Shown: positions 1-47,921 of the stretch, piece by piece
How the letters are laid out: each line of letters starts with the position of its first letter
Position numbering within the stretch: position 1 is the first letter of the stretch
Assembly (NCBI GenBank): GCA_037042915.1
Contig: CM073194.1
Span: 2,480,001-2,544,000, forward strand
Direction: 5' to 3'
Length of the DNA stretch: 64,000 nt
DNA from: Auricularia sp. M13
Lineage: Eukaryota; Basidiomycota; Agaricomycetes; Auriculariales; Auriculariaceae
Made by a program: the position numbers and the translations under genes
The notes under the pieces: generated by a model
Databases searched by the model: none
What the model saw: the letters and a program-made list of their open reading frames with translations, nothing else
What the model was told of the DNA's origin: nothing

Positions 1-365
1 GCTGAATACGTTCTTCCGACTTGGTCTCGTCAGCTAAGCCGATTGGAAGCGTGCCCGTCTTTCTCGGCGATCGTGATGCCGCATGTCTGATCTGCGACGA
101 GAAAAATTCCAGCTCCCGGAACAGTTTCAACCGTGCGAATCGGTGCACCGGTCGCGCCGCTGCGAGTGGGCCGAGGTCCCGGAAGATATTAATATGTCGC
201 CCGGATCTCATGGTATGAGATCCAAAAGGTTCCTGCGCCACGGAAACGAGGAAGGGGGCTTGGCGCTGACTCGCAAAATTATGTTGGGCCCGGCAGTTCG
301 ATTGAGGGTTGGTGCCGGAATTTTGCGAGCCCCACGGCACTCTGCGTGCAAAGCGCGTTTTGGCC

Positions 366-431
366 TTGTCCATCACTTGCCCATCATTTGTCCATCACTT
401 GTCCGTGATTTGTCCATCATTTGTCCGACAA
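366..431 (+). repeat. Direct 11-bp iteron block (6 copies), present in every satellite unit
   Basis: Six back-to-back 11-mers: TTGTCCATCAC, TTGCCCATCAT, TTGTCCATCAC, TTGTCCGTGAT, TTGTCCATCAT, TTGTCCGACAA. The 11-bp spacing is close to one DNA helical turn, so equivalent bases fall on one face of the helix, as in iterated protein-binding sites. The block recurs at the same place in each full unit (for example 1925-1990). No bound protein is known; binding is inference. Confidence 0.85.
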
Positions 432-681
432 GAGACCGTCAAGAGCTTCCAGGGACTCCAAATGAGAGCAGACACCCCGACACCCATATATCTCCGGAAG
501 GCTGACGATCGTGGCTACGCGATGGTGTCGCTACCTCGGCCGTCCGTTGCCAAAGCAACCCGGAATACCTGCCGATGTCACGAAACCCGGACAAGGAGCC
601 GTATCTCCGCGAGGGGAGCAGCTAAACTCGCGGGACGACGAGCGAACGCATTCTGGACGAGAGCCCAACAAATCCCGACAA

Positions 682-703
682 ATGATGGACAAATGATGGA
701 CAA
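682..703 (-). repeat. Inverted iteron pair, first cluster
   Basis: Two copies of ATGATGGACAA, the reverse complement of the iteron TTGTCCATCAT, with a partial third just before at 676-681. This is the first of two inverted clusters in the unit and could pair with the direct block at 366-431 to form a long hairpin or cruciform. It is preceded by AATCCCGAC in copies 1-5 and AATCCCCGAC in copies 6-26. Confidence 0.85.
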
Positions 704-803
704 GGCGTCGACAAGGAGCCGTATCTCGACGAGGAGTGCAGCTGAAACCGCGGGACGAAGTGCAAACACATTCCACACCTGAAGGCCGACCGATCACCAA
801 CAA

Positions 804-825
804 ATGATGGACAAATGATGGACGA
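804..825 (-). repeat. Inverted iteron pair, second cluster
   Basis: ATGATGGACAA followed by ATGATGGACGA, again the reverse complement of the direct iteron. It lies at the end of the second ~120-bp internal duplicate, at the position equivalent to the first inverted cluster. Confidence 0.85.
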
Positions 826-3800
826 GGGACCGACAAGAGCCAATTGCGACCCCAGTTGGACCCCGATCGTCGGACACCCATATATCTCCGTGGAGCTCTC
901 GCCGAGGTCTACGCGATGGTACCCTTCGCGATGCAGTGCGCCGTCATGGCAACGCGCAATTTCCGCCGACGCGACAAAATCCGAAATGGGCGACCGCAGA
1001 CCCTGCCGAGGTTACCTTCCGGAGTCTTCCCGGCGTGCTGGACGACCATCCGATGGCCGGCGCCAAAATACGAACCCTGCCGATCGAGTTTTGACTGCGC
1101 TGTGAAGTGCCGAAGGCAGCTCGTGAGACTTGTGGGACCGAGTCAGAGACATCCATATATGACCTGAGAGCTGCCGAAGACGCCGATCCGATGCACAGGA
1201 AGCCTTGGATCTGCAGGGACCGTGTCCAGACCTGATCGCACTCTGCCGCAGGATTTGCAGATGCCGAACTGGGTCTCGCTTTGTCCCTGGCGCTCGTCGA
1301 GGCCTGAAACTTCTCTGCGCACCATGTCGGGACACTGGGGGCTCATATCCAGGGAAAAGGCACAAAATTGCAGAATCCGAAGCCCGCCGACGCTGTCGGA
1401 CTGGCCTCGATTTGGGGGTTTGGGGTGCGCGGCTCAGGGAGCCTGTCGGTCTGCCCACCGATCGGCTGTGTTTGGCTGGCAGAAGGCAAAAGGACTCTGC
1501 CGATAGTCCGATCGTCCTCGACCTTTGGCCAGGAGAAAGGAAGTCACACTCAACCGGGGCTGAATACGTTCTTCCGACTTGGTCTCGTCAGCTAAGCCGA
1601 TTGGAAGCGTGCCCGTCTTTCTCGGCGATCGTGATGCCGCATGTCTGATCTGCGACGAGAAAAATTCCAGCTCCCCGGAACAGTTTCAACCGTGCGAATC
1701 GGTGCACCGGTCGCGCCGCTGCGAGTGGGCCGAGGTCCCGGAAGATATTAATATGTCGCCCGGATCTCATGGTATGAGATCCAAAAGGTTCCTGCGCCAC
1801 GGAAACGAGGAAGGGGGCTTGGCGCTGACTCGCAAAATTATGTTGGGCCCGGCAGTTCGATTGAGGGTTGGTGCCGGAATTTTGCGAGCCCCACGGCACT
1901 CTGCGTGCAAAGCGCGTTTTGGCCTTGTCCATCACTTGCCCATCATTTGTCCATCACTTGTCCGTGATTTGTCCATCATTTGTCCGACAAGAGACCGTCA
2001 AGAGCTTCCAGGGACTCCAAATGAGAGCAGACACCCCGACACCCATATATCTCCGGAAGGCTGACGATCGTGGCTACGCGATGGTGTCGCTACCTCGGCC
2101 GTCCGTTGCCAAAGCAACCCGGAATACCTGCCGATGTCACGAAACCCGGACAAGGAGCCGTATCTCCGCGAGGGGAGCAGCTAAACTCGCGGGACGACGA
2201 GCGAACGCATTCTGGACGAGAGCCCAACAAATCCCGACAAATGATGGACAAATGATGGACAAGGCGTCGACAAGGAGCCGTATCTCGACGAGGAGTGCAG
2301 CTGAAACCGCGGGACGAAGTGCAAACACATTCCACACCTGAAGGCCGACCGATCACCAACAAATGATGGACAAATGATGGACGAGGGACCGACAAGAGCC
2401 AATTGCGACCCCAGTTGGACCCCGATCGTCGGACACCCATATATCTCCGTGGAGCTCTCGCCGAGGTCTACGCGATGGTACCCTTCGCGATGCAGTGCGC
2501 CGTCATGGCAACGCGCAATTTCCGCCGACGCGACAAAATCCGAAATGGGCGACCGCAGACCCTGCCGAGGTTACCTTCCGGAGTCTTCCCGGCGTGCTGG
2601 ACGACCATCCGATGGCCGGCGCCAAAATACGAACCCTGCCGATCGAGTTTTGACTGCGCTGTGAAGTGCCGAAGGCAGCTCGTGAGACTTGTGGGACCGA
2701 GTCAGAGACATCCATATATGACCTGAGAGCTGCCGAAGACGCCGATCCGATGCACAGGAAGCCTTGGATCTGCAGGGACCGTGTCCAGACCTGATCGCAC
2801 TCTGCCGCAGGATTTGCAGATGCCGAACTGGGTCTCGCTTTGTCCCTGGCGCTCGTCGAGGCCTGAAACTTCTCTGCGCACCATGTCGGGACACTGGGGG
2901 CTCATATCCAGGGGAAAAGGCACAAAATTGCAGAATCCGAAGCCCGCCGACGCTGTCGGACTGGCCTCGATTTGGGGGGTTTGGGGGTGCGCGGCTCAGG
3001 GAGCCTGTCGGTCTGCCCACCGATCGGCTGTGTTTGGCTGGCAGAAGGCAAAAGGACTCTGCCGATAGTCCGATCGTCCTCGACCTTTGGCCAGGAGAAA
3101 GGAAGTCACACTCAACCGGGGCTGAATACGTTCTTCCGACTTGGTCTCGTCAGCTAAGCCGATTGGAAGCGTGCCCGTCTTTCTCGGCGATCGTGATGCC
3201 GCATGTCTGATCTGCGACGAGAAAAATTCCAGCTCCCCGGAACAGTTTCAACCGTGCGAATCGGTGCACCGGTCGCGCCGCTGCGAGTGGGCCGAGGTCC
3301 CGGAAGATATTAATATGTCGCCCGGATCTCATGGTATGAGATCCAAAAGGTTCCTGCGCCACGGAAACGAGGAAGGGGGCTTGGCGCTGACTCGCAAAAT
3401 TATGTTGGGCCCGGCAGTTCGATTGAGGGTTGGTGCCGGAATTTTGCGAGCCCCACGGCACTCTGCGTGCAAAGCGCGTTTTGGCCTTGTCCATCACTTG
3501 CCCATCATTTGTCCATCACTTGTCCGTGATTTGTCCATCATTTGTCCGACAAGAGACCGTCAAGAGCTTCCAGGGACTCCAAATGAGAGCAGACACCCCG
3601 ACACCCATATATCTCCGGAAGGCTGACGATCGTGGCTACGCGATGGTGTCGCTACCTCGGCCGTCCGTTGCCAAAGCAACCCGGAATACCTGCCGATGTC
3701 ACGAAACCCGGACAAGGAGCCGTATCTCCGCGAGGGGAGCAGCTAAACTCGCGGGACGACGAGCGAACGCATTCTGGACGAGAGCCCAACAAATCCCGAC

Positions 3801-6800
3801 AAATGATGGACAAATGATGGACAAGGCGTCGACAAGGAGCCGTATCTCGACGAGGAGTGCAGCTGAAACCGCGGGACGAAGTGCAAACACATTCCACACC
3901 TGAAGGCCGACCGATCACCAACAAATGATGGACAAATGATGGACGAGGGACCGACAAGAGCCAATTGCGACCCCAGTTGGACCCCGATCGTCGGACACCC
4001 ATATATCTCCGTGGAGCTCTCGCCGAGGTCTACGCGATGGTACCCTTCGCGATGCAGTGCGCCGTCATGGCAACGCGCAATTTCCGCCGACGCGACAAAA
4101 TCCGAAATGGGCGACCGCAGACCCTGCCGAGGTTACCTTCCGGAGTCTTCCCGGCGTGCTGGACGACCATCCGATGGCCGGCGCCAAAATACGAACCCTG
4201 CCGATCGAGTTTTGACTGCGCTGTGAAGTGCCGAAGGCAGCTCGTGAGACTTGTGGGACCGAGTCAGAGACATCCATATATGACCTGAGAGCTGCCGAAG
4301 ACGCCGATCCGATGCACAGGAAGCCTTGGATCTGCAGGGACCGTGTCCAGACCTGATCGCACTCTGCCGCAGGATTTGCAGATGCCGAACTGGGTCTCGC
4401 TTTGTCCCTGGCGCTCGTCGAGGCCTGAAACTTCTCTGCGCACCATGTCGGGACACTGGGGGCTCATATCCAGGGAAAAGGCACAAAATTGCAGAATCCG
4501 AAGCCCGCCGACGCTGTCGGACTGGCCTCGATTTGGGGGTTTGGGGTGCGCGGCTCAGGGAGCCTGTCGGTCTGCCCACCGATCGGCTGTGTTTGGCTGG
4601 CAGAAGGCAAAAGGACTCTGCCGATAGTCCGATCGTCCTCGACCTTTGGCCAGGAGAAAGGAAGTCACACTCAACCGGGGCTGAATACGTTCTTCCGACT
4701 TGGTCTCGTCAGCTAAGCCGATTGGAAGCGTGCCCGTCTTTCTCGGCGATCGTGATGCCGCATGTCTGATCTGCGACGAGAAAAATTCCAGCTCCCCGGA
4801 ACAGTTTCAACCGTGCGAATCGGTGCACCGGTCGCGCCGCTGCGAGTGGGCCGAGGTCCCGGAAGATATTAATATGTCGCCCGGATCTCATGGTATGAGA
4901 TCCAAAAGGTTCCTGCGCCACGGAAACGAGGAAGGGGGCTTGGCGCTGACTCGCAAAATTATGTTGGGCCCGGCAGTTCGATTGAGGGTTGGTGCCGGAA
5001 TTTTGCGAGCCCCACGGCACTCTGCGTGCAAAGCGCGTTTTGGCCTTGTCCATCACTTGCCCATCATTTGTCCATCACTTGTCCGTGATTTGTCCATCAT
5101 TTGTCCGACAAGAGACCGTCAAGAGCTTCCAGGGACTCCAAATGAGAGCAGACACCCCGACACCCATATATCTCCGGAAGGCTGACGATCGTGGCTACGC
5201 GATGGTGTCGCTACCTCGGCCGTCCGTTGCCAAAGCAACCCGGAATACCTGCCGATGTCACGAAACCCGGACAAGGAGCCGTATCTCCGCGAGGGGAGCA
5301 GCTAAACTCGCGGGACGACGAGCGAACGCATTCTGGACGAGAGCCCAACAAATCCCGACAAATGATGGACAAATGATGGACAAGGCGTCGACAAGGAGCC
5401 GTATCTCGACGAGGAGTGCAGCTGAAACCGCGGGACGAAGTGCAAACACATTCCACACCTGAAGGCCGACCGATCACCAACAAATGATGGACAAATGATG
5501 GACGAGGGACCGACAAGAGCCAATTGCGACCCCAGTTGGACCCCGATCGTCGGACACCCATATATCTCCGTGGAGCTCTCGCCGAGGTCTACGCGATGGT
5601 ACCCTTCGCGATGCAGTGCGCCGTCATGGCAACGCGCAATTTCCGCCGACGCGACAAAATCCGAAATGGGCGACCGCAGACCCTGCCGAGGTTACCTTCC
5701 GGAGTCTTCCCGGCGTGCTGGACGACCATCCGATGGCCGGCGCCAAAATACGAACCTGCCGATCGAGTTTTGACTGCGCTGTGAAGTGCCGAAGGCAGCT
5801 CGTGAGACTTGTGGGACCGAGTCAGAGACATCCATATATGACCTGAGAGCTGCCGAAGACGCCGATCCGATGCACAGGAAGCCTTGGATCTGCAGGGACC
5901 GTGTCCAGACCTGATCGCACTCTGCCGCAGGATTTGCAGATGCCGAACTGGGTCTCGCTTTGTCCCTGGCGCTCGTCGAGGCCTGAAACTTCTCTGCGCA
6001 CCATGTCGGGACACTGGGGGCTCATATCCAGGGGAAAAGGCACAAAATTGCAGAATCCGAAGCCCGCCGACGCTGTCGGACTGGCCTCGATTTGGGGGTT
6101 TGGGGGTGCGCGGCTCAGGGAGCCTGTCGGTCTGCCCACCGATCGGCTGTGTTTGGCTGGCAGAAGGCAAAAGGACTCTGCCGATAGTCCGATCGTCCTC
6201 GACCTTTGGCCAGGAGAAAGGAAGTCACACTCAACCGGGGCTGAATACGTTCTTCCGACTTGGTCTCGTCAGCTAAGCCGATTGGAAGCGTGCCCGTCTT
6301 TCTCGGCGATCGTGATGCCGCATGTCTGATCTGCGACGAGAAAAATTCCAGCTCCCCGGAACAGTTTCAACCGTGCGAATCGGTGCACCGGTCGCGCCGC
6401 TGCGAGTGGGCCGAGGTCCCGGAAGATATTAATATGTCGCCCGGATCTCATGGTATGAGATCCAAAAGGTTCCTGCGCCACGGAAACGAGGAAGGGGGCT
6501 TGGCGCTGACTCGCAAAATTATGTTGGGCCCGGCAGTTCGATTGAGGGTTGGTGCCGGAATTTTGCGAGCCCCACGGCACTCTGCGTGCAAAGCGCGTTT
6601 TGGCCTTGTCCATCACTTGCCCATCATTTGTCCATCACTTGTCCGTGATTTGTCCATCATTTGTCCGACAAGAGACCGTCAAGAGCTTCCAGGGACTCCA
6701 AATGAGAGCAGACACCCCGACACCCATATATCTCCGGAAGGCTGACGATCGTGGCTACGCGATGGTGTCGCTACCTCGGCCGTCCGTTGCCAAAGCAACC

Positions 6801-9800
6801 CGGAATACCTGCCGATGTCACGAAACCCGGACAAGGAGCCGTATCTCCGCGAGGGGAGCAGCTAAACTCGCGGGACGACGAGCGAACGCATTCTGGACGA
6901 GAGCCCAACAAATCCCGACAAATGATGGACAAATGATGGACAAGGCGTCGACAAGGAGCCGTATCTCGACGAGGAGTGCAGCTGAAACCGCGGGACGAAG
7001 TGCAAACACATTCCACACCTGAAGGCCGACCGATCACCAACAAATGATGGACAAATGATGGACGAGGGACCGACAAGAGCCAATTGCGACCCCAGTTGGA
7101 CCCCGATCGTCGGACACCCATATATCTCCGTGGAGCTCTCGCCGAGGTCTACGCGATGGTACCCTTCGCGATGCAGTGCGCCGTCATGGCAACGCGCAAT
7201 TTCCGCCGACGCGACAAAATCCGAAATGGGCGACCGCAGACCCTGCCGAGGTTACCTTCCGGAGTCTTCCCGGCGTGCTGGACGACCATCCGATGGCCGG
7301 CGCCAAAATACGAACCCTGCCGATCGAGTTTTGACTGCGCTGTGAAGTGCCGAAGGCAGCTCGTGAGACTTGTGGGACCGAGTCAGAGACATCCATATAT
7401 GACCTGAGAGCTGCCGAAGACGCCGATCCGATGCACAGGAAGCCTTGGATCTGCAGGGACCGTGTCCAGACCTGATCGCACTCTGCCGCAGGATTTGCAG
7501 ATGCCGAACTGGGTCTCGCTTTGTCCCTGGCGCTCGTCGAGGCCTGAAACTTCTCTGCGCACCATGTCGGGACACTGGGGGCTCATATCCAGGGGAAAAG
7601 GCACAAAATTGCAGAATCCGAAGCCCGCCGACGCTGTCGGACTGGCCTCGATTTGGGGGTTTGGGGGTGCGCGGCTCAGGGAGCCTGTCGGTCTGCCCAC
7701 CGATCGGCTGTGTTTGGCTGGCAGAAGGCAAAAGGACTCTGCCGATAGTCCGATCGTCCTCGACCTTTGGCCAGGAGAAAGGAAGTCACACTCAACCGGG
7801 GCTGAATACGTTCTTCCGACTTGGTCTCGTCAGCTAAGCCGATTGGAAGCGTGCCCGTCTTTCTCGGCGATCGTGATGCCGCATGTCTGATCTGCGACGA
7901 GAAAAATTCCAGCTCCCCGGAACAGTTTCAACCGTGCGAATCGGTGCACCGGTCGCGCCGCTGCGAGTGGGCCGAGGTCCCGGAAGATATTAATATGTCG
8001 CCCGGATCTCATGGTATGAGATCCAAAAGGTTCCTGCGCCACGGAAACGAGGAAGGGGGCTTGGCGCTGACTCGCAAAATTATGTTGGGCCCGGCAGTTC
8101 GATTGAGGGTTGGTGCCGGAATTTTGCGAGCCCCACGGCACTCTGCGTGCAAAGCGCGTTTTGGCCTTGTCCATCACTTGCCCATCATTTGTCCATCACT
8201 TGTCCGTGATTTGTCCATCATTTGTCCGACAAGAGACCGTCAAGAGCTTCCAGGGACTCCAAATGAGAGCAGACACCCCGACACCCATATATCTCCGGAA
8301 GGCTGACGATCGTGGCTACGCGATGGTGTCGCTACCTCGGCCGTCCGTTGCCAAAGCAACCCGGAATACCTGCCGATGTCACGAAACCCGGACAAGGAGC
8401 CGTATCTCCGCGAGGGGAGCAGCTAAACTCGCGGGACGACGAGCGAACGCATTCTGGACGAGAGCCCAACAAATCCCCGACAAATGATGGACAAATGATG
8501 GACAAGGCGTCGACAAGGAGCCGTATCTCGACGAGGAGTGCAGCTGAAACCGCGGGACGAAGTGCAAACACATTCCACACCTGAAGGCCGACCGATCACC
8601 AACAAATGATGGACAAATGATGGACGAGGGACCGACAAGAGCCAATTGCGACCCCAGTTGGACCCCGATCGTCGGACACCCATATATCTCCGTGGAGCTC
8701 TCGCCGAGGTCTACGCGATGGTACCCTTCGCGATGCAGTGCGCCGTCATGGCAACGCGCAATTTCCGCCGACGCGACAAAATCCGAAATGGGCGACCGCA
8801 GACCCTGCCGAGGTTACCTTCCGGAGTCTTCCCGGCGTGCTGGACGACCATCCGATGGCCGGCGCCAAAATACGAACCCTGCCGATCGAGTTTTGACTGC
8901 GCTGTGAAGTGCCGAAGGCAGCTCGTGAGACTTGTGGGACCGAGTCAGAGACATCCATATATGACCTGAGAGCTGCCGAAGACGCCGATCCGATGCACAG
9001 GAAGCCTTGGATCTGCAGGGACCGTGTCCAGACCTGATCGCACTCTGCCGCAGGATTTGCAGATGCCGAACTGGGTCTCGCTTGTCCCTGGCGCTCGTCG
9101 AGGCCTGAAACTTCTCTGCGCACCATGTCGGGACACTGGGGGCTCATATCCAGGGGAAAAGGCACAAAATTGCAGAACCGAAGCCCACGACGCTGTCGGA
9201 CTGGCCTCGATTTGGGGGTTTGGGGTGCGCGGCTCAGGGAGCCTGTCGGTCTGCCCACCGATCGGCTGTGTTTGGCTGGCAGAAGGCAAAGGACTCTGCC
9301 GATAGTCCGATCGTCCTCGACCTTTGGCCAGGAGAAAGGAAGTCACACTCAACCGGGGCTGAATACGTTCTTCCGACTTGGTCTCGTCAGCTAAGCCGAT
9401 TGGAAGCGTGCCCGTCTTTCTCGGCGATCGTGATGCCGCATGTCTGATCTGCGACGAGAAAAATTCCAGCTCCCCGGAACAGTTTCAACCGTGCGATCGG
9501 TGCACCGGTCGCGCCGCTGCGAGTGGGCCGAGGTCCCGGAAGATATTAATATGTCGCCCGGATCTCATGGTATGAGATCCAAAAGGTTCCTGCGCCACGG
9601 AAACGAGGAAGGGGGCTTGGCGCTGACTCGCAAAATTATGTTGGGCCCGGCAGTTCGATTGAGGGTTGGTGCCGGAATTTTGCGAGCCCCACGGCACTCT
9701 GCGTGCAAAGCGCGTTTTGGCCTTGTCCATCACTTGCCCATCATTTGTCCATCACTTGTCCGTGATTTGTCCATCATTTGTCCGACAAGAGACCGTCAAG

Positions 9801-12800
9801 AGCTTCCAGGGACTCCAAATGAGAGCAGACACCCCGACACCCATATATCTCCGGAAGGCTGACGATCGTGGCTACGCGATGGTGTCGCTACCTCGGCCGT
9901 CCGTTGCCAAAGCAACCCGGAATACCTGCCGATGTCACGAAACCCGGACAAGGAGCCGTATCTCCGCGAGGGGAGCAGCTAAACTCGCGGGACGACGAGC
10001 GAACGCATTCTGGACGAGAGCCCAACAAATCCCCGACAAATGATGGACAAATGATGGACAAGGCGTCGACAAGGAGCCGTATCTCGACGAGGAGTGCAGC
10101 TGAAACCGCGGGACGAAGTGCAAACACATTCCACACCTGAAGGCCGACCGATCACCAACAAATGATGGACAAATGATGGACGAGGGACCGACAAGAGCCA
10201 ATTGCGACCCCAGTTGGACCCCGATCGTCGGACACCCATATATCTCCGTGGAGCTCTCGCCGAGGTCTACGCGATGGTACCCTTCGCGATGCAGTGCGCC
10301 GTCATGGCAACGCGCAATTTCCGCCGACGCGACAAAATCCGAAATGGGCGACCGCAGACCCTGCCGAGGTTACCTTCCGGAGTCTTCCCGGCGTGCTGGA
10401 CGACCATCCGATGGCCGGCGCCAAAATACGAACCCTGCCGATCGAGTTTTGACTGCGCTGTGAAGTGCCGAAGGCAGCTCGTGAGACTTGTGGGACCGAG
10501 TCAGAGACATCCATATATGACCTGAGAGCTGCCGAAGACGCCGATCCGATGCACAGGAAGCCTTGGATCTGCAGGGACCGTGTCCAGACCTGATCGCACT
10601 CTGCCGCAGGATTTGCAGATGCCGAACTGGGTCTCGCTTTGTCCCTGGCGCTCGTCGAGGCCTGAAACTTCTCTGCGCACCATGTCGGGACACTGGGGGC
10701 TCATATCCAGGGGAAAAGGCACAAAATTGCAGAACCGAAGCCCGCCGACGCTGTCGGACTGGCCTCGATTTGGGGGTTTGGGGGTGCGCGGCTCAGGGAG
10801 CCTGTCGGTCTGCCCACCGATCGGCTGTGTTTGGCTGGCAGAAGGCAAAAGGACTCTGCCGATAGTCCGATCGTCCTCGACCTTTGGCCAGGAGAAAGGA
10901 AGTCACACTCAACCGGGGCTGAATACGTTCTTCCGACTTGGTCTCGTCAGCTAAGCCGATTGGAAGCGTGCCCGTCTTTCTCGGCGATCGTGATGCCGCA
11001 TGTCTGATCTGCGACGAGAAAAATTCCAGCTCCCCGGAACAGTTTCAACCGTGCGAATCGGTGCACCGGTCGCGCCGCTGCGAGTGGGCCGAGGTCCCGG
11101 AAGATATTAATATGTCGCCCGGATCTCATGGTATGAGATCCAAAAGGTTCCTGCGCCACGGAAACGAGGAAGGGGGCTTGGCGCTGACTCGCAAAATTAT
11201 GTTGGGCCCGGCAGTTCGATTGAGGGTTGGTGCCGGAATTTTGCGAGCCCCACGGCACTCTGCGTGCAAAGCGCGTTTGGCCTTGTCCATCACTTGCCCA
11301 TCATTTGTCCATCACTTGTCCGTGATTTGTCCATCATTTGTCCGACAAGAGACCGTCAAGAGCTTCCAGGGACTCCAAATGAGAGCAGACACCCCGACAC
11401 CCATATATCTCCGGAAGGCTGACGATCGTGGCTACGCGATGGTGTCGCTACCTCGGCCGTCCGTTGCCAAAGCAACCCGGAATACCTGCCGATGTCACGA
11501 AACCCGGACAAGGAGCCGTATCTCCGCGAGGGGAGCAGCTAAACTCGCGGGACGACGAGCGAACGCATTCTGGACGAGAGCCCAACAAATCCCCGACAAA
11601 TGATGGACAAATGATGGACAAGGCGTCGACAAGGAGCCGTATCTCGACGAGGAGTGCAGCTGAAACCGCGGGACGAAGTGCAAACACATTCCACACCTGA
11701 AGGCCGACCGATCACCAACAAATGATGGACAAATGATGGACGAGGGACCGACAAGAGCCAATTGCGACCCCAGTTGGACCCCGATCGTCGGACACCCATA
11801 TATCTCCGTGGAGCTCTCGCCGAGGTCTACGCGATGGTACCCTTCGCGATGCAGTGCGCCGTCATGGCAACGCGCAATTTCCGCCGACGCGACAAAATCC
11901 GAAATGGGCGACCGCAGACCCTGCCGAGGTTACCTTCCGGAGTCTTCCCGGCGTGCTGGACGACCATCCGATGGCCGGCGCCAAAATACGAACCCTGCCG
12001 ATCGAGTTTTGACTGCGCTGTGAAGTGCCGAAGGCAGCTCGTGAGACTTGTGGGACCGAGTCAGAGACATCCATATATGACCTGAGAGCTGCCGAAGACG
12101 CCGATCCGATGCACAGGAAGCCTTGGATCTGCAGGGACCGTGTCCAGACCTGATCGCACTCTGCCGCAGGATTTGCAGATGCCGAACTGGGTCTCGCTTT
12201 GTCCCTGGCGCTCGTCGAGGCCTGAAACTTCTCTGCGCACCATGTCGGGACACTGGGGGCTCATATCCAGGGGAAAAGGCACAAAATTGCAGAATCCGAA
12301 GCCCGCCGACGCTGTCGGACTGGCCTCGATTTGGGGGTTTGGGGGTGCGCGGCTCAGGGAGCCTGTCGGTCTGCCCACCGATCGGCTGTGTTTGGCTGGC
12401 AGAAGGCAAAAGGACTCTGCCGATAGTCCGATCGTCCTCGACCTTTGGCCAGGAGAAAGGAAGTCACACTCAACCGGGGCTGAATACGTTCTTCCGACTT
12501 GGTCTCGTCAGCTAAGCCGATTGGAAGCGTGCCCGTCTTTCTCGGCGATCGTGATGCCGCATGTCTGATCTGCGACGAGAAAAATTCCAGCTCCCCGGAA
12601 CAGTTTCAACCGTGCGAATCGGTGCACCGGTCGCGCCGCTGCGAGTGGGCCGAGGTCCCGGAAGATATTAATATGTCGCCCGGATCTCATGGTATGAGAT
12701 CCAAAAGGTTCCTGCGCCACGGAAACGAGGAAGGGGGCTTGGCGCTGACTCGCAAAATTATGTTGGGCCCGGCAGTTCGATTGAGGGTTGGTGCCGGAAT

Positions 12801-30800: not shown

Positions 30801-33800
30801 GCTGCCGAAGACGCCGATCCGATGCACAGGAAGCCTTGGATCTGCAGGGACCGTGTCCAGACCTGATCGCACTCTGCCGCAGGATTTGCAGATGCCGAAC
30901 TGGGTCTCGCTTGTCCCTGGCGCTCGTCGAGGCCTGAAACTTCTCTGCGCACCATGTCGGGACACTGGGGGCTCATATCCAGGGGAAAAGGCACAAAATT
31001 GCAGAACTGAAGCCCGAGCGACGCTGTCGGACTGGCCTCGATTTGGGGGTTTGGGGTGCGCGGCTCAGGGAGCCTGTCGGTCTGCCCACCGATCGGCTGT
31101 GTTTGGCTGGCAGAAGGCAAAAGGACTCTGCCGATAGTCCGATCGTCCTCGACCTTTGGCCAGGAGAAAGGAAGTCACACTCAACCGGGGCTGAATACGT
31201 TCTTCCGACTTGGTCTCGTCAGCTAAGCCGATTGGAAGCGTGCCCGTCTTTCTCGGCGATCGTGATGCCGCATGTCTGATCTGCGACGAGAAAATTCCAG
31301 CTCCCCGGAACAGTTTCAACCGTGCGAATCGGTGCACCGGTCGCGCCGCTGCGAGTGGGCCGAGGTCCCGGAAGATATTAATATGTCGCCCGGATCTCAT
31401 GGTATGAGATCCAAAAGGTTCCTGCGCCACGGAAACGAGGAAGGGGGCTTGGCGCTGACTCGCAAAATTATGTTGGGCCCGGCAGTTCGATTGAGGGTTG
31501 GTGCCGGAATTTTGCGAGCCCCACGGCACTCTGCGTGCAAAGCGCGTTTTGGCCTTGTCCATCACTTGCCCATCATTTGTCCATCACTTGTCCGTGATTT
31601 GTCCATCATTTGTCCGACAAGAGACCGTCAAGAGCTTCCAGGGACTCCAAATGAGAGCAGACACCCCGACACCCATATATCTCCGGAAGGCTGACGATCG
31701 TGGCTACGCGATGGTGTCGCTACCTCGGCCGTCCGTTGCCAAAGCAACCCGGAATACCTGCCGATGTCACGAAACCCGGACAAGGAGCCGTATCTCCGCG
31801 AGGGGAGCAGCTAAACTCGCGGGACGACGAGCGAACGCATTCTGGACGAGAGCCCAACAAATCCCCGACAAATGATGGACAAATGATGGACAAGGCGTCG
31901 ACAAGGAGCCGTATCTCGACGAGGAGTGCAGCTGAAACCGCGGGACGAAGTGCAAACACATTCCACACCTGAAGGCCGACCGATCACCAACAAATGATGG
32001 ACAAATGATGGACGAGGGACCGACAAGAGCCAATTGCGACCCCAGTTGGACCCCGATCGTCGGACACCCATATATCTCCGTGGAGCTCTCGCCGAGGTCT
32101 ACGCGATGGTACCCTTCGCGATGCAGTGCGCCGTCATGGCAACGCGCAATTTCCGCCGACGCGACAAAATCCGAAATGGGCGACCGCAGACCCTGCCGAG
32201 GTTACCTTCCGGAGTCTTCCCGGCGTGCTGGACGACCATCCGATGGCCGGCGCCAAAATACGAACCCTGCCGATCGAGTTTTGACTGCGCTGTGAAGTGC
32301 CGAAGGCAGCTCGTGAGACTTGTGGGACCGAGTCAGAGACATCCATATATGACCTGAGAGCTGCCGAAGACGCCGATCCGATGCACAGGAAGCCTTGGAT
32401 CTGCAGGGACCGTGTCCAGACCTGATCGCACTCTGCCGCAGGATTTGCAGATGCCGAACTGGGTCTCGCTTGTCCCTGGCGCTCGTCGAGGCCTGAAACT
32501 TCTCTGCGCACCATGTCGGGACACTGGGGGCTCATATCCAGGGGAAAAGGCACAAAATTGCAGAATCCGAAGCCCGCGACGCTGTCGGACTGGCCTCGAT
32601 TTGGGGGTTTGGGGTGCGCGGCTCAGGGAGCCTGTCGGTCTGCCCACCGATCGGCTGTGTTTGGCTGGCAGAAGGCAAAAGGACTCTGCCGATAGTCCGA
32701 TCGTCCTCGACCTTTGGCCAGGAGAAAGGAAGTCACACTCAACCGGGGCTGAATACGTTCTTCCGACTTGGTCTCGTCAGCTAAGCCGATTGGAAGCGTG
32801 CCCGTCTTTCTCGGCGATCGTGATGCCGCATGTCTGATCTGCGACGAGAAAAATTCCAGCTCCCCGGAACAGTTTCAACCGTGCGATCGGTGCACCGGTC
32901 GCGCCGCTGCGAGTGGGCCGAGGTCCCGGAAGATATTAATATGTCGCCCGGATCTCATGGTATGAGATCCAAAAGGTTCCTGCGCCACGGAAACGAGGAA
33001 GGGGGGCTTGGCGCTGACTCGCAAAATTATGTTGGGCCCGGCAGTTCGATTGAGGGTTGGTGCCGGAATTTTGCGAGCCCCACGGCACTCTGCGTGCAAA
33101 GCGCGTTTTGGCCTTGTCCATCACTTGCCCATCATTTGTCCATCACTTGTCCGTGATTTGTCCATCATTTGTCCGACAAGAGACCGTCAAGAGCTTCCAG
33201 GGACTCCAAATGAGAGCAGACACCCCGACACCCATATATCTCCGGAAGGCTGACGATCGTGGCTACGCGATGGTGTCGCTACCTCGGCCGTCCGTTGCCA
33301 AAGCAACCCGGAATACCTGCCGATGTCACGAAACCCGGACAAGGAGCCGTATCTCCGCGAGGGGAGCAGCTAAACTCGCGGGACGACGAGCGAACGCATT
33401 CTGGACGAGAGCCCAACAAATCCCCGACAAATGATGGACAAATGATGGACAAGGCGTCGACAAGGAGCCGTATCTCGACGAGGAGTGCAGCTGAAACCGC
33501 GGGACGAAGTGCAAACACATTCCACACCTGAAGGCCGACCGATCACCAACAAATGATGGACAAATGATGGACGAGGGACCGACAAGAGCCAATTGCGACC
33601 CCAGTTGGACCCCGATCGTCGGACACCCATATATCTCCGTGGAGCTCTCGCCGAGGTCTACGCGATGGTACCCTTCGCGATGCAGTGCGCCGTCATGGCA
33701 ACGCGCAATTTCCGCCGACGCGACAAAATCCGAAATGGGCGACCGCAGACCCTGCCGAGGTTACCTTCCGGAGTCTTCCCGGCGTGCTGGACGACCATCC

Positions 33801-36800
33801 GATGGCCGGCGCCAAAATACGAACCCTGCCGATCGAGTTTTGACTGCGCTGTGAAGTGCCGAAGGCAGCTCGTGAGACTTGTGGGACCGAGTCAGAGACA
33901 TCCATATATGACCTGAGAGCTGCCGAAGACGCCGATCCGATGCACAGGAAGCCTTGGATCTGCAGGGACCGTGTCCAGACCTGATCGCACTCTGCCGCAG
34001 GATTTGCAGATGCCGAACTGGGTCTCGCTTGTCCCTGGCGCTCGTCGAGGCCTGAAACTTCTCTGCGCACCATGTCGGGACACTGGGGGCTCATATCCAG
34101 GGGAAAAGGCACAAAATTGCAGAATCCGAAGCCCGCCGACGCTGTCGGACTGGCCTCGATTTGGGGGTTTGGGGGTGCGCGGCTCAGGGAGCCTGTCGGT
34201 CTGCCCACCGATCGGCTGTGTTTGGCTGGCAGAAGGCAAAAGGACTCTGCCGATAGTCCGATCGTCCTCGACCTTTGGCCAGGAGAAAGGAAGTCACACT
34301 CAACCGGGGCTGAATACGTTCTTCCGACTTGGTCTCGTCAGCTAAGCCGATTGGAAGCGTGCCCGTCTTTCTCGGCGATCGTGATGCCGCATGTCTGATC
34401 TGCGACGAGAAAAATTCCAGCTCCCCGGAACAGTTTCAACCGTGCGAATCGGTGCACCGGTCGCGCCGCTGCGAGTGGGCCGAGGTCCCGGAAGATATTA
34501 ATATGTCGCCCGGATCTCATGGTATGAGATCCAAAAGGTTCCTGCGCCACGGAAACGAGGAAGGGGGCTTGGCGCTGACTCGCAAAATTATGTTGGGCCC
34601 GGCAGTTCGATTGAGGGTTGGTGCCGGAATTTTGCGAGCCCCACGGCACTCTGCGTGCAAAGCGCGTTTTGGCCTTGTCCATCACTTGCCCATCATTTGT
34701 CCATCACTTGTCCGTGATTTGTCCATCATTTGTCCGACAAGAGACCGTCAAGAGCTTCCAGGGACTCCAAATGAGAGCAGACACCCCGACACCCATATAT
34801 CTCCGGAAGGCTGACGATCGTGGCTACGCGATGGTGTCGCTACCTCGGCCGTCCGTTGCCAAAGCAACCCGGAATACCTGCCGATGTCACGAAACCCGGA
34901 CAAGGAGCCGTATCTCCGCGAGGGGAGCAGCTAAACTCGCGGGACGACGAGCGAACGCATTCTGGACGAGAGCCCAACAAATCCCCGACAAATGATGGAC
35001 AAATGATGGACAAGGCGTCGACAAGGAGCCGTATCTCGACGAGGAGTGCAGCTGAAACCGCGGGACGAAGTGCAAACACATTCCACACCTGAAGGCCGAC
35101 CGATCACCAACAAATGATGGACAAATGATGGACGAGGGACCGACAAGAGCCAATTGCGACCCCAGTTGGACCCCGATCGTCGGACACCCATATATCTCCG
35201 TGGAGCTCTCGCCGAGGTCTACGCGATGGTACCCTTCGCGATGCAGTGCGCCGTCATGGCAACGCGCAATTTCCGCCGACGCGACAAAATCCGAAATGGG
35301 CGACCGCAGACCCTGCCGAGGTTACCTTCCGGAGTCTTCCCGGCGTGCTGGACGACCATCCGATGGCCGGCGCCAAAATACGAACCCTGCCGATCGAGTT
35401 TTGACTGCGCTGTGAAGTGCCGAAGGCAGCTCGTGAGACTTGTGGGACCGAGTCAGAGACATCCATATATGACCTGAGAGCTGCCGAAGACGCCGATCCG
35501 ATGCACAGGAAGCCTTGGATCTGCAGGGACCGTGTCCAGACCTGATCGCACTCTGCCGCAGGATTTGCAGATGCCGAACTGGGTCTCGCTTTGTCCCTGG
35601 CGCTCGTCGAGGCCTGAAACTTCTCTGCGCACCATGTCGGGACACTGGGGGCTCATATCCAGGGGAAAAGGCACAAAATTGCAGAACCGAAGCCCCGCGA
35701 CGCTGTCGGACTGGCCTCGATTTGGGGGGTTTGGGGTGCGCGGCTCAGGGAGCCTGTCGGTCTGCCCACCGATCGGCTGTGTTTGGCTGGCAGAAGGCAA
35801 AAGGACTCTGCCGATAGTCCGATCGTCCTCGACCTTTGGCCAGGAGAAAGGAAGTCACACTCAACCGGGGCTGAATACGTTCTTCCGACTTGGTCTCGTC
35901 AGCTAAGCCGATTGGAAGCGTGCCCGTCTTTCTCGGCGATCGTGATGCCGCATGTCTGATCTGCGACGAGAAAAATTCCAGCTCCCCGGAACAGTTTCAA
36001 CCGTGCGAATCGGTGCACCGGTCGCGCCGCTGCGAGTGGGCCGAGGTCCCGGAAGATATTAATATGTCGCCCGGATCTCATGGTATGAGATCCAAAAGGT
36101 TCCTGCGCCACGGAAACGAGGAAGGGGGGCTTGGCGCTGACTCGCAAAATTATGTTGGGCCCGGCAGTTCGATTGAGGGTTGGTGCCGGAATTTTGCGAG
36201 CCCCACGGCACTCTGCGTGCAAAGCGCGTTTTGGCCTTGTCCATCACTTGCCCATCATTTGTCCATCACTTGTCCGTGATTTGTCCATCATTTGTCCGAC
36301 AAGAGACCGTCAAGAGCTTCCAGGGACTCCAAATGAGAGCAGACACCCCGACACCCATATATCTCCGGAAGGCTGACGATCGTGGCTACGCGATGGTGTC
36401 GCTACCTCGGCCGTCCGTTGCCAAAGCAACCCGGAATACCTGCCGATGTCACGAAACCCGGACAAGGAGCCGTATCTCCGCGAGGGGAGCAGCTAAACTC
36501 GCGGGACGACGAGCGAACGCATTCTGGACGAGAGCCCAACAAATCCCCGACAAATGATGGACAAATGATGGACAAGGCGTCGACAAGGAGCCGTATCTCG
36601 ACGAGGAGTGCAGCTGAAACCGCGGGACGAAGTGCAAACACATTCCACACCTGAAGGCCGACCGATCACCAACAAATGATGGACAAATGATGGACGAGGG
36701 ACCGACAAGAGCCAATTGCGACCCCAGTTGGACCCCGATCGTCGGACACCCATATATCTCCGTGGAGCTCTCGCCGAGGTCTACGCGATGGTACCCTTCG

Positions 36801-39800
36801 CGATGCAGTGCGCCGTCATGGCAACGCGCAATTTCCGCCGACGCGACAAAATCCGAAATGGGCGACCGCAGACCCTGCCGAGGTTACCTTCCGGAGTCTT
36901 CCCGGCGTGCTGGACGACCATCCGATGGCCGGCGCCAAAATACGAACCCTGCCGATCGAGTTTTGACTGCGCTGTGAAGTGCCGAAGGCAGCTCGTGAGA
37001 CTTGTGGGACCGAGTCAGAGACATCCATATATGACCTGAGAGCTGCCGAAGACGCCGATCCGATGCACAGGAAGCCTTGGATCTGCAGGGACCGTGTCCA
37101 GACCTGATCGCACTCTGCCGCAGGATTTGCAGATGCCGAACTGGGTCTCGCTTTGTCCCTGGCGCTCGTCGAGGCCTGAAACTTCTCTGCGCACCATGTC
37201 GGGACACTGGGGGCTCATATCCAGGGGAAAAGGCACAAAATTGCAGAATCCGAAGCCCGCCGACGCTGTCGGACTGGCCTCGATTTGGGGGGTTTGGGGG
37301 TGCGCGGCTCAGGGAGCCTGTCGGTCTGCCCACCGATCGGCTGTGTTTGGCTGGCAGAAGGCAAAAGGACTCTGCCGATAGTCCGATCGTCCTCGACCTT
37401 TGGCCAGGAGAAAGGAAGTCACACTCAACCGGGGCTGAATACGTTCTTCCGACTTGGTCTCGTCAGCTAAGCCGATTGGAAGCGTGCCCGTCTTTCTCGG
37501 CGATCGTGATGCCGCATGTCTGATCTGCGACGAGAAAAATTCCAGCTCCCCGGAACAGTTTCAACCGTGCGAATCGGTGCACCGGTCGCGCCGCTGCGAG
37601 TGGGCCGAGGTCCCGGAAGATATTAATATGTCGCCCGGATCTCATGGTATGAGATCCAAAAGGTTCCTGCGCCACGGAAACGAGGAAGGGGGCTTGGCGC
37701 TGACTCGCAAAATTATGTTGGGCCCGGCAGTTCGATTGAGGGTTGGTGCCGGAATTTTGCGAGCCCCACGGCACTCTGCGTGCAAAGCGCGTTTTGGCCT
37801 TGTCCATCACTTGCCCATCATTTGTCCATCACTTGTCCGTGATTTGTCCATCATTTGTCCGACAAGAGACCGTCAAGAGCTTCCAGGGACTCCAAATGAG
37901 AGCAGACACCCCGACAGCCATATATCTCCGGAAGGCTGACGATCGTGGCTACGCGATGGTGTCGCTACCTCGGCCGTCCGTTGCCAAAGCAACCCGGAAT
38001 ACCTGCCGATGTCACGAAACCCGGACAAGGAGCCGTATCTCCGCGAGGGGAGCAGCTAAACTCGCGGGACGACGAGCGAACGCATTCTGGACGAGAGCCC
38101 AACAAATCCCCGACAAATGATGGACAAATGATGGACAAGGCGTCGACAAGGAGCCGTATCTCGACGAGGAGTGCAGCTGAAACCGCGGGACGAAGTGCAA
38201 ACACATTCCACACCTGAAGGCCGACCGATCACCAACAAATGATGGACAAATGATGGACGAGGGACCGACAAGAGCCAATTGCGACCCCAGTTGGACCCCG
38301 ATCGTCGGACACCCATATATCTCCGTGGAGCTCTCGCCGAGGTCTACGCGATGGTACCCTTCGCGATGCAGTGCGCCGTCATGGCAACGCGCAATTTCCG
38401 CCGACGCGACAAAATCCGAAATGGGCGACCGCAGACCCTGCCGAGGTTACCTTCCGGAGTCTTCCCGGCGTGCTGGACGACCATCCGATGGCCGGCGCCA
38501 AAATACGAACCCTGCCGATCGAGTTTTGACTGCGCTGTGAAGTGCCGAAGGCAGCTCGTGAGACTTGTGGGACCGAGTCAGAGACATCCATATATGACCT
38601 GAGAGCTGCCGAAGACGCCGATCCGATGCACAGGAAGCCTTGGATCTGCAGGGACCGTGTCCAGACCTGATCGCACTCTGCCGCAGGATTTGCAGATGCC
38701 GAACTGGGTCTCGCTTTGTCCCTGGCGCTCGTCGAGGCCTGAAACTTCTCTGCGCACCATGTCGGGACACTGGGGGCTCATATCCAGGGGAAAAGGCACA
38801 AAATTGCAGAATCCGAAGCCCGCCGACGCTGTCGGACTGGCCTCGATTTGGGGGTTTGGGGGTGCGCGGCTCAGGGAGCCTGTCGGTCTGCCCACCGATC
38901 AGCTGTGTTTGGCTGGCAGAAGGCAAAAGGACTCTGCCGATAGTCCGATCGTCCTCGACCTTTGGCCAGGAGAAAGGAAGTCACACTCAACCGGGGCTGA
39001 ATACGTTCTTCCGACTTGGTCTCGTCAGCTAAGCCGATTGGAAGCGTGCCCGTCTTTCTCGGCGATCGTGATGCCGCATGTCTGATCTGCGACGAGAAAA
39101 ATTCCAGCTCCCCGGAACAGTTTCAACCGTGCGATCGGTGCACCGGTCGCGCCGCTGCGAGTGGGCCGAGGTCCCGGAAGATATTAATATGTCGCCCGGA
39201 TCTCATGGTATGAGATCCAAAAGGTTCCTGCGCCACGGAAACGAGGAAGGGGGCTTGGCGCTGACTCGCAAAATTATGTTGGGCCCGGCAGTTCGATTGA
39301 GGGTTGGTGCCGGAATTTTGCGAGCCCCACGGCACTCTGCGTGCAAAGCGCGTTTTGGCCTTGTCCATCACTTGCCCATCATTTGTCCATCACTTGTCCG
39401 TGATTTGTCCATCATTTGTCCGACAAGAGACCGTCAAGAGCTTCCAGGGACTCCAAATGAGAGCAGACACCCCGACACCCATATATCTCCGGAAGGCTGA
39501 CGATCGTGGCTACGCGATGGTGTCGCTACCTCGGCCGTCCGTTGCCAAAGCAACCCGGAATACCTGCCGATGTCACGAAACCCGGACAAGGAGCCGTATC
39601 TCCGCGAGGGGAGCAGCTAAACTCGCGGGACGACGAGCGAACGCATTCTGGACGAGAGCCCAACAAATCCCCGACAAATGATGGACAAATGATGGACAAG
39701 GCGTCGACAAGGAGCCGTATCTCGACGAGGAGTGCAGCTGAAACCGCGGGACGAAGTGCAAACACATTCCACACCTGAAGGCCGACCGATCACCAACAAA

Positions 39801-40558
39801 TGATGGACAAATGATGGACGAGGGACCGACAAGAGCCAATTGCGACCCCAGTTGGACCCCGATCGTCGGACACCCATATATCTCCGTGGAGCTCTCGCCG
39901 AGGTCTACGCGATGGTACCCTTCGCGATGCAGTGCGCCGTCATGGCAACGCGCAATTTCCGCCGACGCGACAAAATCCGAAATGGGCGACCGCAGACCCT
40001 GCCGAGGTTACCTTCCGGAGTCTTCCCGGCGTGCTGGACGACCATCCGATGGCCGGCGCCAAAATACGAACCCTGCCGATCGAGTTTTGACTGCGCTGTG
40101 AAGTGCCGAAGGCAGCTCGTGAGACTTGTGGGACCGAGTCAGAGACATCCATATATGACCTGAGAGCTGCCGAAGACGCCGATCCGATGCACAGGAAGCC
40201 TTGGATCTGCAGGGACCGTGTCCAGACCTGATCGCACTCTGCCGCAGGATTTGCAGATGCCGAACTGGGTCTCGCTTTGTCCCTGGCGCTCGTCGAGGCC
40301 TGAAACTTCTCTGCGCACCATGTCGGGACACTGGGGGCTCATATCCAGGGGAAAAGGCACAAAATTGCAGAACCGAAGCCCGCCGACGACGCTGTCGGAC
40401 TGGCCTCGATTTGGGGGTTTGGGGGTGCGCGGCTCAGGGAGCCTGTCGGTCTGCCCACCGATCGGCTGTGTTTGGCTGGCAGAAGGCAAAAGGACTCTGC
40501 CGATAGTCCGATCGTCCTCGACCTTTGGCCAGGAGAAAGGAAGTCACACTCAACCGGG

Positions 40559-40934
40559 GCTGAATACGTTCTTCCGACTTGGTCTCGTCAGCTAAGCCGA
40601 TTGGAAGCGTGCCCGTCTTTCTCGGCGATCGTGATGCCGCATGTCTGATCTGCGACGAGAAAATTCCAGCTCCCGGAACAGTTTCAACCGTGCGAATCGG
40701 TGCACCGGTCGCGCCGCTGCGAGTGGGCCGAGGTCCCGGAAGATATTAATATGTCGCCCGGATCTCATGGTATGAGATCCAAAAGGTTCCTGCGCCACGG
40801 AAACGAGGAAGGGGGGCTTGGCGCTGACTCGCAAAATTATGTTGGGCCCGGCAGTTCGATTGAGGGTTGGTGCCGGAATTTTGCGAGCCCCACGGCACTC
40901 TGCGTGCAAAGCGCGTTTTGGCCTTGTCCATCAC
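40559..40934. repeat. Truncated terminal satellite copy and array boundary
   Basis: The 27th copy follows the consensus for about 376 bp and stops after TTGTCCATCAC at 40924-40934, the first complete 11-bp iteron of its block. From 40935 (ACAGCGGCGG) there is no match to the unit. It carries the six-G variant of the GAAGGGGGG run also seen in copies 18, 22 and 24. Confidence 0.95.
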
Positions 40935-41540
40935 ACAGCGGCGGATCTTGAATTTTCCGAGACCTCGGGAAGAGGACACTTTTTGCCAACCTGGTAAAAG
41001 TTTGATTTAGGATTTTGCGAGTGGCGGACACAATTGCCTTGCACAGTAATGGAGAAATTTTGAGTATTACGGTTATCAACAGTCAGAAATCCGCAATTTA
41101 TGGGATACTGTGATTATCCAAATTGGCCAAAGGCCGGATTTCACGTGTTTCGGAACTTGAACACAAGTCCGACGAGGAATAGATCAGTTATAGCGGAAGC
41201 ATCAATATGCACATTATTGCGAAAAGTACAATGTTATCTTTCCCGACGCCCCAGAAATCTTGATTTATAGTACGAGGGAAAGTCCAATTCTTGTTGCTAG
41301 TGGGATAGACTAACTTTTCCGACCGGGAAAACCTCGGCATTTGCGAGCACAGGAAGATGTCAGATGTGCCGCTTCGGGATATTTGTAGTTTAATCTGCTT
41401 CGGAAAAGTCGAAGTTTAGCGGCCGAGGGAAATTGGTCCATAATGCGAGACAGGGAAAAAACCTATATTTTCAGCCAGAAAAAGTCTATTTTGCGTGTAA
41501 GAGAAAAAAATGTAGCATCTCCGAGACATACCAAGTTCTA
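40935..41540. other. AT-richer transition zone next to the array, no gene seen
   Basis: About 600 bp with base composition unlike either flank. Short related words recur in both orientations: TTTTCCGA, CGGGAAAA, CGGAAAAGTCG, CGAGGGAAA, ACAGGGAAAAA and TTTGCGAG. I see no sustained reading frame with splice signals. It may be a worn remnant of another repeat family or a spacer bordering the satellite. Confidence 0.5.
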
Positions 41541-43246: not shown

Positions 43247-44168
43247 CTATTCCACGCTCATTTTCGCGCTCAGGACACTCGCTTCAACCACCCACGGCCG
43301 CGCGGAACGCGACGTGCGCTCGGAACGCGAGGTACGCCCTCCGCTGGTTCTGCACGCTGGCCGACTCGGCTCACAGCGTCGCGCAGACGTCTGGGCCGCG
43401 TTAGCCTGCGCGCGTCGTACTCGCGGTGTCCTGCGCGATTGGCAGGACACGCGCCGTGACGCGGTGCGGTCGGTTTGCCCGTCAGGCGACCGAACCGACT
43501 CGGACACGCAGCAACGCCAAAAGCGTGTTCCGGCCGAGATTGTGGGCGCGGGAGGTGCGCATGGGGTGCAGTAACGACGTGCGGGTGTTGCGGGCGTGGG
43601 GGATGAAGCAGGGACTGTGTACGTACCTTTTCCGTAGTTTGCCAATACACATGCACTTGCACCTCCTCCGAACCGAGGCTCTTCGCGCGGCGCGGCGCGA
43701 AGGCAGTGTATGAGTCTATTGAATGCAAAGATTGATTAGCTGCGGGGATAACGACGATATGAAGAAAACTGAAAAACGCACTTGTGTGTCGATCGAATGT
43801 TCATCGCGTTGTGCAGCGTACGGCGCGCGCTGGACGGCGTCTGCGGTGTGACAGTACGTCAGTATTGTATAGGGCAGCGTCATAAACACAGTACATACGC
43901 ATATGCAGCCAAAACCGCGAGGAGATGGATTAGACGTTGAACGCGGGTCTTGCGATAGGATGTCTTGCACGCCAGTTGACGGATTCCTGAATGGATTCCA
44001 AGAGATGATGATGTATCAGATGTATACACGGAGATAAGACAGTTAATTAACGTACCTCGTTGATCCACCAGCCTGCGCCGACGATTGTGGAAACGCGACG
44101 GGTCGATGTCGAACGTCGTTGCGAGCGAACGCAACGTCGCATCGCGGTCGTTCGCCGGCGAGCAGCAT
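43247..44168 (-). CDS. Candidate spliced orphan gene (about 242 residues if the last exon is unspliced)
   Basis: Minus-strand model with exons 44056-44168, 43899-43986, 43782-43840 and 43247-43715. All three introns keep phase: 43987-44055 (donor GTACGT), 43841-43898 (donor GTATGT, CTGAC branch site) and 43716-43781 (donor GTGCGT, acceptor AATAG). A TATAAA box lies at 44305-44310, about 137 bp upstream of the chosen ATG at 44166-44168. The N-terminal part has no recognisable domain. The last exon runs into GC-rich degenerate repeat sequence and becomes Arg/Ser-rich, so it may really end by splicing at the GTACGT donor near 43635. No function can be assigned. The opposite strand is also open here because of GC content, so strand choice rests on the splice signals. 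Confidence 0.4.
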
Positions 44169-45434: not shown

Positions 45435-45640
45435 ACAGCTTGTGCTCTCCCTGCCGTCGTGGACATGGTACGCCCGCGTCATCTCGTTGTTGCTTTTTTC
45501 TGACATCCGCCTGCAGTCCATCTCGCTGAATTTTGCGAGACGGCGCAGAGCGGTGTTCCGGCTCTGCTGTATCTGAGGAGCTAAAGATTTAAAAAATGAA
45601 TTCAGTGCTATTGTAGACGTTCAAGCGCCTGCAGACTCAC
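45435..45640. other. Spacer between candidate gene and SAM synthetase fragment
   Basis: No supported gene. The side next to 45641 begins as the donor end of an intron of the SAM synthetase fragment (GTGAGT on the minus strand at 45635-45640), but no continuation of that gene follows. Confidence 0.4.
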
Positions 45641-47749: not shown

Positions 47750-47921
47750 GAATCTCGTGAGCTCATGGTTACTATTCAGTAATCATTTCTTGTTGTAGCC
47801 ATACGCCCTTTTTCTTGATCGTGCTGTGTCCAGCTGCCATGCATTGACCTGCTTTCTTGACTCACGTAATCCTCGCAATGATGCTTGATATGTCTTGTAT
47901 TACTACCCGGAAAATGAATTG

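Follow-up and report, generated by a model that had tools for sequence, protein, structure and literature searches.

The analysed window is a 64,000-nucleotide stretch of the genome of the fungus Auricularia sp. M13 (contig CM073194.1, here C2; the window is C2:2480001-2544000), which was assembled into 52.1 Mb in 14 contigs. Its positions 1-40934 are occupied by an uninterrupted head-to-tail satellite array with 27 unit starts and 26 complete units of 1555-1564 bp each (Table 1). On balance, this array is probably a subtelomeric satellite grown from an element that attaches to chromosome ends. It extends leftward beyond the window to C2:2434987, and the whole array, as assembled, comprises 85.9 kb (C2:2434987-2520934), that is, 55 full units and a 191-bp partial unit; its right end at 40934 is sharp and lies within 11-bp sub-repeats. 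Pairwise identity of the 26 window units is 99.57% on average (minimum 98.9%, gaps counted), the variable columns being mostly indels, many of them in homopolymers, while the mean substitution identity across the whole C2 array is 99.83%. An earlier sequence-only reading had described a long, near-uniform satellite of at least 26 copies with few differences and had attributed it to recent expansion or exchange; the description is confirmed by these counts, and recent homogenisation is borne out. In addition, one site shows a period-4 pattern in units 4-28 of the C2 array (agreement 0.81 at lag 4 and 0.09 at lag 2), with 8 of 100000 permutations as extreme in a test made after the pattern had been seen and on a stretch picked by eye. 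The pattern points to copying in four-unit blocks.

According to the Pfam search, none of the nine open reading frames (ORFs) of the first two units has a match at E<=0.1, and the window has no Rfam match at the gathering threshold, so that a gene or a known structured RNA in the unit is not supported. The same reading had seen no credible gene in the unit, which agrees with these results. Among the matches listed in open-licence literature no paper describing this satellite was found, which is no proof of absence.

Table 1. Features of the window (positions refer to the window; C2 coordinates are given as remarks)
Feature	Position	Strand	Remarks
Satellite array, right part of the 85.9-kb array	1..40934	+	C2:2434987-2520934
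Tail of unit 29 of the C2 array	1-186	+	
Units 30-55 of the C2 array, 26 complete units when counting starts at the fixed terminus	187..40743	+	
15-nt terminus TATTAATATGTCGCC, first window copy; present in every unit	187..201	+	
Hairpin adjoining the terminus, 9-bp arms GGATCTCAT / ATGAGATCC; present in every unit	203..223	+	Folded in reverse complement, z -3.0
First unit, sub-repeat block with four forward CCATCA	370..419	+	
First unit, block with CCATCA in reverse (two pairs, hence four TGATGG when read on the plus strand)	683..821	-	
Last unit, cut after 191 bp within CCATCA sub-repeats; distal end of the array	40744..40934	+	
Right flank, start of the repeat mosaic between the array and the opposite-strand satellite at C2:2593-2599 kb	40935..64000	.	

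The search of the unit against the whole assembly, which had been suggested as a check, found related copies on several scaffolds, many of them near scaffold ends. A 40-mer of the unit has 107 exact matches (74 forward, 33 reverse), distributed among the 100 matches listed over C2 (55), C3 (19) and C4 (26). A 95-mer with up to 3 mismatches has 168 matches, and the 100 listed additionally include C4 right, C5 right, C7 left, C9, C11 and C12, as well as an opposite-strand satellite group on C2. The elements belong to types with unrelated bodies of 1.56 kb (long type, the unit of the window), 1.15 kb (short type) and at least 6 kb (third type). The short-type unit (1151 bp) is 88% alike to the long type over ~920 bp and otherwise unrelated; its 32 matches are located at C7 right (18), C13 left (7), C10 right (4), and C2, C6 and C7 left (one each, those on C6 and C7 left with 1 and 2 mismatches, respectively). 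On C9 the third type measures at least 5.96 kb; the C9 and C2-left copies are 99.6% alike over 3350 bp. No viral contig matches the long-type start exactly. The arrays of C2 (55 units), C3 (14 units used) and C4 left (9 units used) differ pairwise by 3-4 fixed substitutions, so they are not assembler-made duplicates of a single array; the one full unit of C7 left differs from them by 44-47 fixed substitutions. In addition, an element initiated by TTAGG was detected in 16 places (7 on the plus and 9 on the minus strand).

The array edges on C2, C3 and C4 (long type) start at an identical base in unrelated flanks, and the short-type edges on C6, C10 and C13 start at that same fixed base, again in unrelated flanks. 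Several element types have a common proximal terminus, T[A/C]TTA[A/C]TATGTCGCC, followed by a hairpin; the terminus was found in long, short, third and L040-type copies. Preceded by CC (hereafter, the CC type), it has 66 matches genome-wide (41 on the plus and 25 on the minus strand), and the reversed control has none. In the loci examined, 84 long-type and 2 short-type starts with AAGA or AACA in front of them were set aside as array-internal; the remaining starts fell into 19 distinct 25-nt contexts, 19/19 preceded by CC. One context is the usual junction within short arrays, leaving 18 insertion junctions, all 18 with CC before the terminus; 12 come from loci chosen before the CC search, and six (L050, L051 twice, L052, L053 and L058) from loci chosen with or after it. 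The flanks of these 18 junctions are different all the way to the fixed base. TTAGG directly precedes none of the 18, and poly(A) is absent from the proximal end, each start examined being T[A/C]TTA[A/C]TATGTCGCC. The hairpin behind the terminus differs in sequence by type, with z of -3.0 in the long, -2.65 in the third and -2.25 in the L040 type among the four types folded.

These junctions bear on one alternative, that of an ordinary subtelomeric satellite spread by recombination only (break-induced replication, unequal exchange, circle copying), like TelKO or Y' units, with the fixed starts being one ancestral edge copied. Homogenisation within arrays and the four-unit pattern do show recombination or block copying, and the TelKO arrays of Naumovozyma castellii provide a precedent (sections of PMC6778800). 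However, the flanks differ up to the fixed base at 18 junctions and unrelated bodies have the terminus in common, so that copying of one edge offers no explanation, and this alternative is considered unlikely.

Four element types have a further feature in common, the hexamer CCATCA. Counted on either strand, it reaches 5.1 per kb in the long unit, 5.2 in the short unit, 25.0 in the first kb of the third type and 4.5 in the TTAGG-initiated element versus 0.5 per kb in arm and core DNA, so the enrichment is 9-50-fold in these types. Its joint excess is the largest of any hexamer that occurs in all of them, and its counts (8, 6, 25 and 20) exceed the maxima of 1000 first-order simulations each (5, 5, 7 and 13), although copies within one element are not independent because they are placed in sub-repeats. 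CCATCA is not enriched in a fifth element, at locus L058 (2 observed, mean 1.2), or in the remainder of the third type (3 in 4962 bp).

As for location, the 66 CC-preceded starts group into 18 clusters; 13 are situated no more than 100 kb from a scaffold end, and outward reading was found in 12 of the 13. Position relative to telomere repeats had also been proposed as a check, and at C4 right the satellite lies ~2-24 kb (closest ~2.3 kb; one copy 47 kb) inside the terminal (TTAGG)n tract; C4 and C7 carry it at both ends. Distal element ends are cut at varying points and there joined to another element or to a (TTAGG)n telomere. On C13 and C6 a truncated short unit is directly followed by a new start, and at C11 right a 21-bp fragment, a ~190-bp fragment and a ~25-bp TTAGG-initiated fragment stand in series before the next start. 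At C4 right, a third-type copy comes after a truncated long unit and is itself cut at approximately position 1678 (versus the C9 copy), with (TTAGG)n within ~10 bp of the cut and running to the scaffold end. On C1 a truncated long unit precedes (TTAGG)3 and a different, TTAGG-initiated element. Stacked elements were seen at L040, L047, L048 and L050. The TTAGG-initiated element and the CC type run in the same direction in 8/8 blocks that they share (C1, C2 left, C4 left, C5 left, C5 right, C6, C11 middle and C13). Among the roles proposed in the sequence-only reading, the subtelomere thus fits best; that reading, partly supported, missed the membership of the unit in a set of elements sharing a fixed terminus on many chromosome ends.

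The terminal telomere repeat is five-base TTAGG with scattered variants such as TTGGG (C5 left L017, C2 right L032, C4 right L033); a TTAGGG telomere was rejected, its five-fold repeat having 0 matches. Since (TTAGG)n telomeres are reported in sections of the papers on Boletus edulis (PMC12134998) and Rhizoctonia (PMC7884421, whose methods name TTAGGG), the five-base telomere is not itself new; in an excerpt on Ganoderma the telomere is CCCTAA (PMC10817607). Interstitial (TTAGG)n tracts, among the 100 matches listed, occur at C1:2341243/2390723, C1:8998551-9073750, C2:1898930, C2:2979807/3035640 and others, some of them paired, facing or back-to-back, 15-56 kb apart. Separately, the third-type start on C9 (L051:1-230) interrupts an open frame, as if the chromosome had broken within a gene and healed there; a GAGIS stretch in this frame presumably recalls sirtuins, and the frame has no Pfam match.

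The surroundings of the array on C2 are complex. To its left (C2:2380-2430 kb, L006-L010) lie related F-box-like ORFs, 4 of the 5 scanned matching at E<=0.01 and two of them over the Pfam cut-off. To its right, a repeat mosaic contains an RNase H piece, a tnp2 transposase piece, an amine oxidase ORF and a RING-finger ORF, and is followed by the opposite-strand satellite and, at C2:2612.9-2614.8 kb, by end-type elements with TTAGG that face left. The F-box-like ORFs and the transposase support the earlier attribution to a fungal genome. The site, at 2.43-2.61 Mb of 5.18 Mb, looks like two chromosome ends face to face, by real fusion or by scaffolding error. Its mid-chromosome position, the facing arrays and the repeat-rich core with a piece of a long interspersed nuclear element (LINE) and a transposase piece would also suit a centromeric or pericentromeric array, a role that the sequence-only reading had listed as well. 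This is very unlikely, since the satellite reaches the telomere at C4 right, the core also has the amine oxidase and RING-finger ORFs, and TTAGG-bearing end elements that read outward are turned toward the core on its right side; the presence at both ends of C4 and C7 also disfavours a centromeric satellite with one site per chromosome.

Inside the C3 scaffold (L044, C3:2317201-2318400), a telomere tract of ~440 bp is directly followed by 100 N; therefore, scaffolding joined chromosome ends elsewhere in the assembly, and the middle of C2 may be a similar join. An assembly artefact, with the length or mid-scaffold place of the array produced by scaffolding, collapse or expansion, is nevertheless highly improbable: no N was found in 63 kb beyond the array (window and C2:2546001-2586000; 2544001-2546000 and 2586001-2612800 lay outside the search), and arrays differ by fixed substitutions, so the satellite itself was not invented. 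The common orientation of the CC type and the TTAGG-initiated element in the eight blocks leads us to infer that the internal and inward blocks are displaced pieces of chromosome ends.

Several other features were observed on C2. At the left array edge (L006:9685 to L005:4600, C2:2429685-2434600) an insert of ~4.9 kb, its ends inverted as judged by eye, interrupts a short-type copy. The C2 core contains a 1525-bp inverted repeat whose two copies (window 57259-58783 and L055:1938-3462) are 100% identical and separated by 34 kb. A 432-aa open frame at window 46451-47749 has long, imperfect Asp/Ala-rich repeats (18- to 72-bp periods, 46677-47247) and no Pfam match. Close to the left end of C2, L011:2080-2780 consists of 4.5 tandem copies of a 154-bp sequence.

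The origin from an end-attaching element is supported by the fixed start in unrelated flanks on six scaffolds, by the CC starts with their empty control, their mostly outward orientation at ends, the CC at every insertion junction read and the direction shared with the TTAGG-initiated element, by the telomere-capped third-type copy of C4 right together with the serial fragments of C11 right, and by hairpins of differing sequence in the same place along with CCATCA in four element types. In the proposed mechanism, a chromosome end would lose its cap, and its exposed 3' end would become an attachment site. An RNA with the 3' end ...GGCGACAUAUUAAUA, perhaps helped by GG pairing with CC, would be reverse transcribed onto it in terminal target-primed reverse transcription, following HeT-A/MoTeR logic; attachment is thus probably the work of a reverse transcriptase, which would sit in an element with the 3' end GGCGACATATTAATA. 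Tandem arrays could then grow by recombination or by copying of a multimeric or circular template, and the four-unit higher-order pattern supports block copying. Telomerase would later re-cap the new end, and the satellite would serve as patch and buffer at chromosome ends.

Some observations weigh against this origin. No enzyme was identified for the end-attaching elements: none of the 150 RVT_1 matches scored (of 348 candidates) lies within a CC-type cluster, the nearest among them being at C4:65123, 14 kb proximal to one. At the third-type locus L051, 6 of the 41 ORFs of at least 75 aa were scanned, with no Pfam match. Gag and reverse transcriptase, sought in the nine unit ORFs, these six ORFs and the RVT_1 matches, were not found, the ~12-27-kb stretches between starts being outside the search. 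The six longest L051 ORFs run outward, opposite to the expected retroelement sense, a point against an inward-read retroelement. Neither poly(A) nor any other retroelement hallmark was seen, and the short-type hairpin is weak (z -0.8). Of the end clusters, one (C5, 58-60 kb) has inward reading, and a further five clusters lie in scaffold interiors (C1 1.08 Mb, two in mid C2, C6 0.94 Mb and C11 2.01 Mb). Among the CC type only C4 right is seen reaching a telomere, and a scaffold end alone is no proof of a chromosome end because assembly tends to break inside arrays. A LINE of the C2 core was also tried as a partner and rejected. With 120 of 130 candidates scored, it gave 68 matches, itself counted in, all of them outside the CC-type clusters; the closest apart from itself is at C5:48469, 9.5 kb from the inward cluster. 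No solved structure is related to the LINE protein at E<=0.1.

The outward third-type ORFs would suit another origin, in which a rolling-circle enzyme (HUH, Helitron- or IS91-like) would have moved the elements in DNA form, joining a fixed 5' terminus to the chromosome 3' end and paying out tandem circle copies, with one-ended insertion giving a variable distal end. It fits the terminus and hairpin, the constant dinucleotide target, the variable far end and the unit-length tandem copies, and the genome does have Helitron_like_N domains (51 matches from 60 candidates). However, none of these 51 lies within a CC-type cluster, and a Helitron partner was accordingly rejected. Helitrons are defined by TC...CTRR ends and an A|T target, which the terminus and the CC target lack, and the location at ends and the outward bias would need an extra assumption. 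A rolling-circle origin is thus judged improbable.

With attachment to chromosome ends preferred, a broader proposal can be made tentatively, at somewhat less than an even chance: a second end-patching system would exist beside the TTAGG telomeres, in which unrelated, mostly non-coding elements are copied in trans onto broken ends finishing in CC, stack outward and sometimes become satellites of at least 85 kb as replacement subtelomeres, the 15-nt terminus, the hairpin and CCATCA (in at least three of them) being their only common features. If so, it could be used to study the coexistence of telomerase ends with retroelement ends, the seeding of satellites and the mark that singles out a broken end for healing. 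The case also warns that centromere-like arrays in scaffolds may be joined chromosome ends. End attachment without telomere repeats is the solution of Drosophila, a lineage that lost telomerase; here a Drosophila-like logic would operate beside ordinary telomere repeats, in elements that become satellites.

According to sections of the review PMC5537684, Drosophila HeT-A, TART and TAHRE likewise form head-to-tail end arrays of one orientation, with the fixed end toward the centromere, distal truncation and joining to non-telomeric ends; the outward end clusters, truncation and stacking found here agree with this. Their elements encode proteins and end in poly(A) (same sections), whereas here no enzyme was found, the proximal end has the 15-nt terminus and hairpin in place of poly(A), and TTAGG telomeres coexist. 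Excerpts on MoTeR1/MoTeR2 of Magnaporthe (PMC7367193) and FoTeRs of Fusarium (PMC12857005) describe long and short elements with common termini, as found here, head-to-tail arrays, truncated copies re-capped by telomere and tandem amplification by copying. Those elements lie within telomere repeats, unlike the CC-type junctions (0/18), and the arrays here reach 55 units; only the TTAGG-initiated type is inserted within telomere repeats. Endonuclease-deficient Penelope-like elements, Athena and Terminons, as far as sections of PMC5537684 present them (Giardia elements being treated alongside them and Drosophila), share attachment to exposed ends and truncation. Their proximal telomeric repeats resemble the TTAGG-initiated type, while the CC type has none; an Athena-type reverse transcriptase was not found here, though none was searched for directly. 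Penelope-like elements are noted at two ends of Agaricus bisporus in part of PMC7473861. TelKO of N. castellii also consists of tandem subtelomeric units added at chromosome ends; in the sections of PMC6778800 concerned it carries telomere repeats and arises without telomerase, whereas here a fixed non-telomeric terminus joins unrelated flanks. A tandem array near telomeres, as in subtelomeric satellites generally, is present at C4 right and in the 13 of 18 clusters near scaffold ends. With no enzyme found, no poly(A) at the proximal end and no telomere repeats at the CC-type junctions, the elements are not filed as members of HeT-A or MoTeR; by analogy, they may work like them.

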